From NCBI RefSeq assembly GCF_035573695.1, contig NZ_CP121694.1, forward strand, positions 162,501 through 226,500: a DNA stretch of 64,000 nucleotides. Direction: 5' to 3'. The notes below the pieces were generated by a model. That model worked only from the letters and a program-made list of their open reading frames with translations. It did not search any database and was not told the origin of the DNA. Shown here one piece after another: positions 33,917 through 37,021 of the stretch (positions are counted from its first letter, which is position 1; each line of letters begins with the position of its first letter). A program made the translations under genes and the position numbers. This DNA is from Metallumcola ferriviriculae. GTDB lineage: Bacteria; Bacillota; JADQBR01.

Positions 33917-33939
33917 AAAGCACCTGTATAAGGTGCTTT
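33917..33939 (-). terminator. Intrinsic terminator overlapping the yabR stop
   Basis: AAAGCACCTTATACAGGTGCTTT hairpin followed by TATTTTTT on the minus strand. The stem overlaps the yabR stop codon by two bases. Confidence 0.8.
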
Positions 33940-34339
33940 AAATTCTTCCTTTACCGCCACCGCGCTTGGCATCAGTATTCTTTTTCAAATCTTGCTGTCT
34001 TTCATCACTTTCCTTCATAAACTTAGCTAATTTATCTTCAAAGCTAAAGCTAGGCTTAATACGCTTCTTAGAATTATTCCTGTTTTTGTTATGCGGCTTG
34101 TAATCAGGCTTCGCCTGTTTAATGGATAACCCAATCTTGCCACTATCATCAATATTAATAACCTTGACAGTAACCTTTTCGCTCTCTTTTACATAATCCT
34201 TTACATCCTTAACATACGCATCTGCCACTTCGGAAATATGAACTAGACCTGTAACCCCACCGGGCAGCTCCACAAATGCACCAAACTTAGTTATTCCTGT
34301 CACTACCCCTTCAAGAATGTTACCTACAGCGATGGACAT
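33938..34339 (-). CDS. yabR: S1 RNA-binding domain protein (YabR family)
   Basis: A 133-aa protein with one S1 domain (about 1-75: VGNILEGVVTGITKFGAFVELPGG, VHISEVADAYVKD) and a basic, lysine/asparagine-rich tail. YabR-type S1 proteins are general RNA-binding factors whose exact role is unclear. The ATG at 34339 has TCCTCCT (SD AGGAGGA) upstream, while the longer frame runs into the promoter. The promoter at 34380-34408 is perfectly consensus. In relatives it follows divIC directly; here an insertion sequence separates the two. Confidence 0.88.
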   Translation of the reverse strand: MSIAVGNILEGVVTGITKFGAFVELPGGVTGLVHISEVADAYVKDVKDYVKESEKVTVKVINIDDSGKIGLSIKQAKPDYKPHNKNRNNSKKRIKPSFSFEDKLAKFMKESDERQQDLKKNTDAKRGGGKGRI

Positions 34340-34379: not shown

Positions 34380-34408
34380 ATTATAGACTAGGCAGGAGCA
34401 CGTGTCAA
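34380..34408 (-). promoter_or_regulatory. Promoter of yabR, inside the left direct repeat
   Basis: On the minus strand TTGACA (34403-34408), 17 nt, TATAAT (34380-34385) is a perfect sigma-A promoter. All but its last -10 base lies in the 162-bp duplicated segment, so a second copy (TTGACA-17-TATAAC) exists at 36553-36581 and points into the right end of the insertion sequence. Confidence 0.82.
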
Positions 34409-34542
34409 TAATGTTCGCGTAAGACATACATCTAGTCACCAGCCAGGAATTATTAGTCTCGAATATCCGCATTTCTCTCCGTTTCCTTTAAAACCTTTAC
34501 TTCACCAGGATAAGCAGGAACCATTACCGTCTCACCGGGTTT
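34381..34542. repeat. Left copy of the 162-bp direct repeat flanking the insertion sequence
   Basis: Identical base for base to 36554-36715. It includes a truncated remnant of the 3' end of divIC (34453-34542, 30 codons) and the yabR promoter. Such long duplications are the hallmark of IS1634/IS1549-type transposition. Confidence 0.97.
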
Positions 34543-34580
34543 CCGTTGTTTTACACCAACTACATATAAAAAACCGCTCT

Positions 34581-34603
34581 GAAGCCCGAGAAGTCGGGCT
34601 TTT
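34581..34603 (+). terminator. Terminator at the left end of the insertion sequence
   Basis: The stem aagcccga / tcgggctt with a short gaag loop is followed by TTCTTTT on the plus strand. It would stop transcription entering the transposase gene from the left, a common protection in insertion sequences. Confidence 0.72.
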
Positions 34604-34631
34604 CTTTTGTCAATCTTTATGCATTTATATG

Positions 34632-34660
34632 TTGTATATCGTCGTGTATTGTGATATTAT
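34632..34660 (+). promoter_or_regulatory. Likely transposase promoter
   Basis: TTGTAT (34632-34637), 17 nt, TATTAT (34655-34660), with GAGGTG as ribosome site before the ATG at 34679. The -35 is imperfect, as expected for a weak transposase promoter. Confidence 0.55.
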
Positions 34661-34678
34661 GGGATTAGAGGTGAATTT

Positions 34679-36451
34679 ATGTATGTAAAGAAAAGTATCA
34701 GTAATGGTAAGGTCTATTTGTCTTTTGTCCAAGGTTATAGACAGAATGGAAAGGTAAAACAAAAAACAGTTGAGAAACTTGGCTATCTTGAAGATCTGGA
34801 AAAGGAATATCCTGATCCTATTGCACATTTCAAGCGGGTTGCAAAGGAACGTACCAAGAACGAAGTTCCGCAAAAAAAACTAGAACTTGACCTGTTAGCT
34901 AAGCTTCCGGATCAAGCAGCATTGCGCAAAAATCTTGGTTATACTGTGCCAAAATCAGTATACTCTCTACTTGGTCTTAGAGAATATTTCCAGAACAAGC
35001 AAAGGCATTTAATCGTAGATTATAACCTAAACAGCATATTCAGTCTGCTCATTTTCAACCGCTTTTTATTTCCTTCATCAAAAAGACACGCCTTTGAAAC
35101 CAAGGATTATTTCTTTGAATCCTTTGACTTTTCACTGGCTGACATTTACCGTGCTCTGGATTACTTTGCCGGATATTCAAATGAGATCCAACGGCATCTC
35201 CATAGTAGAATATCGGAACTTATAGCAAGAGATAACCAGCTTGGATATTATGATGTCACCAACTACTACTTCGAGATCCCTTATGAGGATGAAGATGAAT
35301 ACGATGAAGACGGGAATATGATTAAAAAGGGTCAAAAAAAACGTGGCCCATCTAAAGAGCACCGTAAAGATCCCATCATTCAAATGGGACTCCTGATGGA
35401 TACTAATGGAATCCCCATGGCCTTCAATACTTTTTCTGGTGGCGAAAGTGAAAAACTCTCTCTACTTCCAACAATTCGCCGTGTAAAGAGAGATTTCGCC
35501 TTGGAACGTATTATCGTTGTAGCAGACAGGGGGCTTAACACTAGTGATAATACCACTTTTCTTTCGGGAAAGAACCATGATGACATGGCAGGTAATGACG
35601 GCTATGTTTATGGACAGAGTGTTCTCGGTGCTGACAAAGAATTTAAAGAATGGGTATTAAATCAGGAAGATTATTTAATAGACAAAGAAGAAGATAAGGA
35701 TGGAAATACCGTCTTTTTTAAGCACAAATTCCGCATTCATGCAAAGAAAATACAGTTAAAGGGAACAGATGGCAAGCGTGCCCAAAAGATGGAAATATTT
35801 CAGAAACAGATGGTCTACTATTCCGATAAATACGCCAAAAAACAGAAAAAAGACAGAGATAAGGCTATTGCGAAGGCAAAGGAACTGATTGCCAAACCCG
35901 GAAAATATACAAGAGCTACCAGCATTGGAGCTGCCGGCTATGTAAGCAATATCAAATTCTTAAAACAAACAGGTGAAATACCTGACGGGCTTGTTCTTTC
36001 CCTGAATGAAGCAAGAATTCAGAAGGAAGAAAAATATGATGGATACTATTCCATTGTTACCAGTGAAAAGCATTTATCAGATAGAGAAATTCGTGATATT
36101 TACAAGGGACTTTGGGAAATCGAAGAATCCTTTAAAGTAATCAAGAGTGAATTCAAGGCGAGACCTGTATATGTAAAAAAAGATGCACATGTAGAAGCAC
36201 ATTTTCTGGTATGTTTTGTAGCACTCGTAATCATGCGGGTTCTTGAACAGATGCTAGAGAAAAAACATACTGTGAAGCAGATTCGCAATTCTTTGATTAG
36301 CTATTCCTGCTCCTATTTGGAACAAAACTATTACCTGTTTGATTATCGAGATGATGTAATAGAATCCATTGAGTCTGTCTTTGGCTTTGACTTAAGTAAA
36401 AAGATTATGTCTCAGGCAGCGATCAAAAAAATTTTGCAATACAAAAAATAA
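34679..36451 (+). CDS. IS1634 family transposase
   Basis: A 590-aa DDE transposase that cuts and rejoins the insertion sequence ends. Catalytic acids can be placed at Asp192 (GYYDVTNYYFE), Asp283 (VVADRGLNT) and a Glu in the YKGLWEIEESFKVIK segment (about 480-483), which is the IS4-type YREK region. The N-terminus MYVKKSISNGKVYLSFVQ is typical for the family. A highly acidic stretch (EDEDEYDEDG) lies near 203. The gene is intact and full length. Ribosome site AGAGGTG precedes the ATG. Confidence 0.95.
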   Translation: MYVKKSISNGKVYLSFVQGYRQNGKVKQKTVEKLGYLEDLEKEYPDPIAHFKRVAKERTKNEVPQKKLELDLLAKLPDQAALRKNLGYTVPKSVYSLLGLREYFQNKQRHLIVDYNLNSIFSLLIFNRFLFPSSKRHAFETKDYFFESFDFSLADIYRALDYFAGYSNEIQRHLHSRISELIARDNQLGYYDVTNYYFEIPYEDEDEYDEDGNMIKKGQKKRGPSKEHRKDPIIQMGLLMDTNGIPMAFNTFSGGESEKLSLLPTIRRVKRDFALERIIVVADRGLNTSDNTTFLSGKNHDDMAGNDGYVYGQSVLGADKEFKEWVLNQEDYLIDKEEDKDGNTVFFKHKFRIHAKKIQLKGTDGKRAQKMEIFQKQMVYYSDKYAKKQKKDRDKAIAKAKELIAKPGKYTRATSIGAAGYVSNIKFLKQTGEIPDGLVLSLNEARIQKEEKYDGYYSIVTSEKHLSDREIRDIYKGLWEIEESFKVIKSEFKARPVYVKKDAHVEAHFLVCFVALVIMRVLEQMLEKKHTVKQIRNSLISYSCSYLEQNYYLFDYRDDVIESIESVFGFDLSKKIMSQAAIKKILQYKK

Positions 36452-36483
36452 GTGTCAATACACTACAAGTTTTTGACAAAATA

Positions 36484-36527
36484 CAAAACCCGCTAGCCCT
36501 TGGTAATACTGGGGCAACGGGTTTTTT
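36484..36527 (+). terminator. Terminator at the right end of the insertion sequence
   Basis: The stem aaaacccg / cgggtttt, with an inner ccctt..ctgggg pairing, is followed by TTTTTT on the plus strand and preceded by AAAA. It ends transposase mRNA and, read from the other strand, could stop transcription from the duplicated yabR promoter. Confidence 0.72.
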
Positions 36528-36553
36528 TAATCGTTTTTGCTGTAAAACTCAGG

Positions 36554-36715
36554 TTATAGACTAGGCAGGAGCACGTGTCAATAATGTTCGCGTAAGACAT
36601 ACATCTAGTCACCAGCCAGGAATTATTAGTCTCGAATATCCGCATTTCTCTCCGTTTCCTTTAAAACCTTTACTTCACCAGGATAAGCAGGAACCATTAC
36701 CGTCTCACCGGGTTT
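36554..36715. repeat. Right copy of the 162-bp direct repeat
   Basis: Perfect duplicate of 34381-34542. Here it forms part of the intact divIC gene (36626-36715 is the last 30 codons) and of the sequence downstream of it. Confidence 0.97.
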
Positions 36716-37021
36716 TACCATACCGAAGTCCTCCCTGGCCAATCTTTCTATATAAGCGTCTGTTTGAACCAGATAAGCCTTTTCATGCAAGTTTCCATTT
36801 TCCACCTTCAACTGGTTTAACTGCTGCTTAAGCTCCTCCTTCTGTAAAGTCAAGCGATGAATTTGGTAATATACTTGACCAAAAGAAAACATGACATACC
36901 CTAGCACAGCAAGCAGTATTATTGACCCCGGTTTCCATCGAAACCTCCACCGTTTCTTTGGTGTACGGCTGACCTCCGGGACCCTATAGGTTTCTTGGGA
37001 GTATAAATTAGGCGCTTCCAC
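36626..37021 (-). CDS. divIC: Septum formation initiator family protein (DivIC/FtsL-like)
   Basis: A 131-aa bitopic membrane protein of the divisome. A basic cytoplasmic N-terminus precedes one membrane segment (about 31-50), followed by a coiled coil (IHRLTLQKEELKQQLNQL) and a C-terminal extracytoplasmic domain with AREDFGMVKPGE. The GTG start directly follows the stop of the HTH gene and uses a GAGGAGGA site inside it, so translation is coupled. The gene is intact; its 3' end was copied during insertion of the neighbouring element. Placed between yabQ and yabR as in B. subtilis. Confidence 0.9.
   Translation of the reverse strand: MEAPNLYSQETYRVPEVSRTPKKRWRFRWKPGSIILLAVLGYVMFSFGQVYYQIHRLTLQKEELKQQLNQLKVENGNLHEKAYLVQTDAYIERLAREDFGMVKPGETVMVPAYPGEVKVLKETERNADIRD

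Follow-up and report, generated by a model that had tools for sequence, protein, structure and literature searches.

An IS1634-family insertion sequence of Metallumcola ferriviriculae flanked by a 162-bp target duplication, and a related clade that probably targets promoter -10 boxes

Two members of the IS1634 family, IS1634 of Mycoplasma mycoides and IS1549 of Mycobacterium smegmatis, produce target duplications of variable length, from 8 to 514 bp, and by 2008 no mechanistic model for these long duplications had been put forward in the account cited here (PMC2266710). The same account agrees with the first-pass annotation of the present locus, which had named such duplications for both elements. 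Other relatives share the transposase family and the end pattern C-----YT with the element described below (PMC2266710), but ISGka5 makes a 6-bp duplication (PMC8024623), as does ISPfe2 (PMC3281130). A more distant likeness is found in Tn5/IS50, of the IS4 superfamily, whose transposase shares its predicted fold with the enzyme studied here at 12% identity, although duplications in the IS50 subgroup are of 8-9 bp (PMC2266710). The copy-out/paste-in elements ISCth4 and IS911 also have -35/-10 elements at the IS junction; in those elements the boxes belong to the IS ends and serve to express the transposase (PMC7780238), whereas in the present case both are part of the target and point against the transposase gene.

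The element described here lies in a stretch of 64,000 nucleotides from Metallumcola ferriviriculae, the whole of which is called the window. It resembles IS1634 and IS1549 in family and in its long, variable duplications, and it probably belongs to a promoter-targeting clade of the IS1634 family, the promoter group, in which the right end is aimed at a sigma-A/sigma-70-type -10 box and a long duplication of variable length is made upstream. Sequence comparison points, beyond the earlier annotation, to the -10 box as the insertion site, to a promoter signal that recurs at right ends, and to a link between long duplication and one transposase clade. No earlier report of promoter insertion by the IS1634 family was found among the titles and abstract openings listed, a body of literature in which subscription journals are thinly covered and which lies apart from the founding descriptions of IS1634 and IS1549.

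The insertion at the divIC/yabR locus

The first-pass annotation had described a perfect 162-bp direct repeat around 2011 bp with terminal inverted repeats and an intact IS1634-type transposase gene, and all of this was borne out (Table 1). The inverted repeats are CCGTTGTTTTACACCAA and CCTGAGTTTTACAGCAA, and the runner-up direct repeat within the same 4 kb is of only 29 nt at 76% identity. Copy 1 of the duplication carries the yabR promoter minus the final base of its -10 box, together with a divIC fragment (the last 90 bp). Copy 2 completes divIC, and its own promoter copy points into the right end of the IS, against the transposase gene, with a -10 box that now reads TATAAC. Thus divIC is intact and yabR has kept its promoter, as had been claimed.

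Table 1. Features of the insertion at the divIC/yabR locus (positions in the window)
Feature	Position	Strand	Remark
yabR (name from the first-pass annotation), S1 RNA-binding domain, downstream of the promoter	33938..34339	-	PF00575
yabR -10 box TATAAT	34380..34385	-	12/12 promoter also in L402, L403
Target duplication, copy 1	34381..34542		identical to copy 2, 162/162
yabR -35 box TTGACA, spacer 17 bp	34403..34408	-	12/12 promoter also in L402, L403
Insertion sequence, IS1634 family, 2011 bp	34543..36553	+	ends fixed by four identical genomic copies
Left terminal inverted repeat	34543..34559	+	13/17 with right; relatives show C.....TT
Terminator-like hairpin in left end, facing transcription from the left	34582..34609	+	-14.6 kcal/mol before T run
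Transposase, 590 aa, DDE type	34679..36451	+	NF033559 349 bits; D192, D283, E482 by position
Two-way terminator-like hairpin about 65 nt inside right end	36485..36529		-16.9 inward, -17.1 outward
Right terminal inverted repeat	36537..36553	-	13/17 with left; relatives show C.....TT
Target duplication, copy 2	36554..36715		identical to copy 1
divIC, whole thanks to copy 2	36626..37021	-	PF04977

The genome (3.72 Mb, one contig) contains four copies of the IS, identical across all 2011 bp, and the perfect repeats around them all differ, being of 162, 229, 155 and 215 bp. Variation in duplication length, which the annotation had proposed to look for in other copies, is therefore present, and the 5-6 bp duplication of typical IS1634 members was not seen at any of the four. 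Two relatives from other genera of the same family (L402 and L403) have no IS and a single copy of the divIC end; a doubled 162-bp segment at an IS-free site, which would have spoken against a target duplication, was not seen in these two. The repeat is a true target duplication and a recent one, as four identical copies with perfect repeats indicate.

Followed along the strand leading into the right end, the target is TTGACA, 17 bases, TATAA, the junction and T; that is, the right end was joined between the fifth and sixth bases of the yabR -10 box. The promoter, TTGACA-N17-TATAAT, scores 12/12 in the window genome and also in L402 and L403, though spacer and surroundings differ, so that it very probably functioned as a promoter already before the insertion. 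Matches out of six to the -10 and -35 boxes are 6 and 6 for the window copy (L022), 5 and 6 for L024, and 6 and 3 for L023; at one of the four copies, L025, neither box is well matched (3 and 3).

A second IS1634-type element in the same genome (L026, G000:C1:1838695-1844281) is 35% identical and is flanked by a 410-bp perfect repeat. Its right end was not found by the end pattern, perhaps owing to a later deletion, and the ORF beside it is one that we take to resemble MurA.

Promoter sequence at right-end junctions

IS1634-family loci were collected within the same phylum, giving 142 rows with a nearly whole transposase, a few places still being double, and these were binned at >440, 279-440 and <200 bits with a profile (A1) made from the first five transposases. 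Exact junctions were obtained by searching for the IS ends with the pattern C.....TT and a short core; TATAAT was scored within -2 to +1 bases of the junction, and the -35 box at 16-18 bp. Scoring was identical in all three sets of junctions, the end-finding windows having been slightly widened after the first set, and the 440-bit limit was chosen after the first set had been seen and kept thereafter. The second set started from 85 loci, namely the best 80 of 552 from a search with the A2 profile plus L336, L226, L227, L233 and L234, mostly from named genomes; 36 were kept, being non-duplicate loci with a transposase above 440 bits and a right end that matched the pattern and was followed by 60 nt or more. 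From the 64 loci of the third set, 15 new promoter-group junctions were scored, mostly from genomes G306 and G419. A scan of genome contigs with a single protein as query found no relative, and a search of viral contigs gave one locus, whose ends were not located.

In many related insertions the right end lies at TATAAT or no more than 2 bases from it, often with TTGACA 17 bp upstream. A TATAAT match of at least 5/6 was found in the first set (non-duplicate) at 32/52 right junctions vs 0/49 left, in the second at 14/36 vs 0/27, and in the third at 9/15 vs 1/15, so that over all sets 55 of 103 right junctions carry it vs 1 of 90 left (p 3e-18). The joint -35/-10 score reached at least 9/12 at 42/103 right junctions, at 0/90 left junctions and at 1.3% of 43,428 background positions from the discovery loci, and it was 12/12 at 9/103 right junctions. 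The signal is tightly placed: the share scoring at least 9/12 is 0.408 at the junction, 0.049 when read three nucleotides upstream and 0.18 three nucleotides downstream (n=61).

The -35 box points the same way. Over the 46 good -10 sites of the first two sets, its mean match was 3.35 at a spacer of 17, and no other spacer between 8 and 29 exceeded 1.93. The second set was weaker than the first (14/36 vs 32/52), and on its own its -35 placement was not sharp, with mean matches of 2.36 at spacer 17, 2.29 at 26 and 2.14 at 14 (n=14). At 48 of the 103 right junctions the TATAAT match was below 5/6; hence either the targeting is incomplete or decay has affected many of the sites.

Transposase relationships and duplication length

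The transposase scores 349 bits against NF033559 (NCBIfam IS1634), well over the cut-off of 100, so the IS1634-type identity proposed from the first reading holds. The IS ends, CCGTTGTT and CCTGAGTT, fit the family pattern C-----YT, and the length of 2011 bp is just over the 1500-2000 bp stated for the family in the account cited (PMC2266710). Residues D192, D283 and E482, predicted to be catalytic by position, are invariant in 16 sequences; in 63 sequences D283 and E482 remain invariant and D192 is conserved in at least 90%. The predicted model (pLDDT 87.9) aligns with the Tn5 transposase over 350 residues (Z 19.9, rmsd 4.6, 12% identity), and by its predicted fold the protein would be a Tn5-like DDE enzyme. 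A search of PDB sequences with A2 for a promoter-recognition domain gave one weak match, 3r0a (E 0.05), and the fold comparison, in which the Tn5 family came top and residues before 115 were covered by few rows, gave no clue to promoter recognition. We know of no promoter rule for Tn5/IS50.

Long duplication follows the transposase. Among copies with a located right end, a duplication of at least 13 bp was present in 36/54 above 440 bits, with perfect or near-perfect repeats, and in 20/24 at 279-440 bits; the other 18 of the 54 have no duplication of that size, some being at contig ends or decayed. Among rows below 200 bits, only L064, L117 and L118 had a direct repeat longer than 14 bp at their edges; these repeats, of 32-35 bp, lie at inconsistent distances in repeat-rich flanks. 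Distant multi-copy families make duplications of 5-6 bp, as judged by eye from aligned copies (G236, G273, G154, G263, G071), and by the same inspection so do L028 and L029 of the window genome.

A tree of 79 transposases contains one branch with SH-aLRT 100 that separates 40 long-duplication sequences and 16 without an assigned length, the window transposase being on this side, from 7 short-duplication sequences and another 16 without an assigned length; the tree was made by a quick method, in which the Mycoplasmopsis sequences and the short-duplication L172 and L029 form long branches that are placed unsurely, and some long-duplication rows are likewise unsure in their placement. Both kinds of element occur together in three genomes, the window genome (G000), G273 and G071; length thus seems to be a property of the element and not of the host.

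Where both ends are exact, the duplications measure 13-505 bp in the promoter group (n=51, median 123) and 17-1129 bp in a sister group (n=20, median 107), with no difference between the two (p 0.88); the lists leave out L192 and L196, which are at contig ends, and L026, whose right end was not found. The longest, of 1129 bp with 3 differences, is a single case (L063, G071) and could be another kind of duplication. Helical phasing of the lengths was considered and dropped: it had p 0.01 in the 51 promoter-group copies and was gone at n=63, a sample that includes two sister-group copies (p 0.30). A promoter-group copy on a plasmid of Ligilactobacillus salivarius (L233, NZ_CP089852.1) has a 13-bp duplication and lies upstream of a predicted erm(C) gene. 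In G071, two copies of an IS1634 relative (L117 and L118, G071:C1:2444631-2449133 and 2456910-2461412) have a 5-bp duplication and lie among repeats of 32-36 bp that resemble CRISPR arrays.

The sister group comprises the elements at 279-440 bits and related ones found later. Despite its long duplications, a -10 box of at least 5/6 was present at 0/24 of its right ends; since long duplications occur there without promoter targeting, polymerase cannot be the cause of their length. The joined strand starts with A at both ends (18/20 each), and at least four T in the last five nucleotides were found at 17/31 left and 8/31 right junctions vs 3.6% of the background. Junctions resembling intrinsic terminators numbered 7/62 vs 163/13,984 background positions (p 9e-6), and such sequence occurred at 1/92 left junctions of the promoter group. 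Several sister elements (L376, L377 and L381-L383 of G419, L151 and L092) are often cut just past T runs, some of which belong to terminator-like hairpins.

Mycoplasmopsis gallopavonis (NZ_LR215032.1) has 13 IS1634-type matches (L239, L241, L244, L247-L255), whose frames carry TGA, the codon for tryptophan in mycoplasmas. Several of these elements are flanked by direct repeats of 44-341 bp, and inspection of their junctions by eye, unscored, revealed no -10 box.

A candidate mechanism, its alternatives and the neighbouring genes

The duplication begins at the right-end site and extends upstream, and the transposase gene is directed away from the gene downstream. In DDE chemistry a target strand is attacked by a 3'-OH end, on which the assignment of attacked strands is based, and the downstream edge of a -10 box is the region melted by RNA polymerase. 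On this basis the right 3'-OH would attack the template strand at the border of the melted region, the left 3'-OH would attack the opposite strand at a loosely constrained point upstream, and synthesis from both nicks would copy the segment between them. The left-end attack site shows a weak preference only, its first base being A in 19/36 and C in none, and the two attacks look independent. The open complex of RNA polymerase may mark the first site, the second being taken from nearby upstream DNA; of these steps, marking by the polymerase is the least certain. The proposal in its widest form is that the clade is guided by RNA polymerase, with the template strand attacked in the open complex and the other end joined independently up to hundreds of bases upstream, that the sister group, given its preference for T runs and intrinsic terminators, uses terminating polymerase likewise, and that the duplication is at once the price and the protection; we advance it as a tentative idea.

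For the length alone, an origin at a replication fork or gap, for example through the sliding clamp, would be compatible with promoter targeting; we regard it as doubtful. Other IS1634-family transposases are described as binding the beta clamp (PMC4549789), and the lack of 10.5-bp phasing (n=63, p 0.30) is expected if no single rigid complex holds both cuts, but a fork or gap leaves the promoter at one end unexplained.

Promoters might also be hit merely for containing an AT-rich, TATAAT-like sequence that the transposase itself reads. The strongest columns at the junction are those of the hexamer itself (-6 to -1), the sister group has its own preference for T runs, and the second set by itself shows a weak -35 peak, all of which would suit such a preference. 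It is nevertheless unlikely to be the explanation, as the -35 box at these targets goes far beyond what TATAAT-like sites offer: a match of at least 5/6 was found in 14/33 targets vs 77/3363 TATAAT-like sites of the same loci (p 2e-14, one duplicate locus included), and TTGACA in full at 16-18 bp in 11/33 (10/32 without the duplicate locus) vs 6/3363.

Fifty reconstructed targets, with ORFs of at least 80 codons called without annotation, were used to look at neighbouring genes. The right junction falls inside a predicted ORF in 4/50, at 42/46 intergenic right junctions the closest downstream ORF is oriented away from the IS, and the upstream cut lies within an ORF in 16/50. Copying of the DNA between the two cuts leaves the downstream gene with its promoter and the upstream gene with its end, as for yabR and divIC here; the annotation's view that a long duplication spares both neighbours thus holds at the window locus, and such sparing is common among related insertions. 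It might then be asked if insertion is random and only the gene-sparing cases, upstream of promoters and with a long duplication, are kept. The mostly spared neighbours would agree with survivorship of this kind, which is nonetheless very improbable, because gene sparing cannot explain positioning within a few bases of a -10 box, nor a signal at one end only (55/103 right vs 1/90 left). An old duplication, recombination between copies or an assembly error in place of transposition can be set aside almost entirely, despite flanks shared by copies L175 and L197 of G233, given four identical copies with the same IS ends in four different perfect repeats, repeats that are perfect or near-perfect at 36/54 discovery-set copies, and the single-copy empty sites of L402 and L403, which refute this reading for the window locus.

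Promoter targeting remains the preferred reading. The second promoter copy is directed into the right end. Of the promoter-group families, 11/18 have an inward-facing terminator-like hairpin within the outermost 170 nt of the right end, vs 15/274 within-element control windows, and in 10 of those 11, the window's included, it lies about 65 nt inside. Such a terminator would end transcription from the second promoter ahead of the transposase gene. On the outward strand of the right end, terminator-like hairpins were found in 15/18 promoter-group families, and in the left end in 9/18. The sister group also has right-end terminators (4/11 families), and these therefore need not be an answer to promoter targeting. 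The nearest downstream ORFs of the four copies in the window genome encode an S1-domain protein (yabR), an Abi-like domain, a LytS-type histidine kinase and TrkH.

A rule with one end at the -10 box and the other loose makes the origin of long duplications directly testable, and the promoter rule suggests a bacterial counterpart of the yeast elements that insert where transcription begins. Ty3 and Ty1 insert just upstream of genes, at the machinery of transcription start, and the gene is spared; they are retroelements that bind Pol III factors and make short duplications, unrelated to the present IS, and the likeness is one of outcome only. Insertions of this type would yield natural promoter calls in poorly studied bacteria and could become a tool for inserting DNA at promoters while leaving genes intact. 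They also call for caution: a repeat that runs to hundreds of bases next to an IS may be no more than a target duplication.

Flank exchange was rejected as a general cause of absent duplications: among 23 rows from both groups without a duplication of at least 13 bp, compared by 30-bp flanks, only the two rows of L175 found matches, to L175 itself and to L197. L175 consists of two neighbouring IS copies, and the flanks that these share with one another and with L197 are a sign of recombination or local duplication in genome G233.
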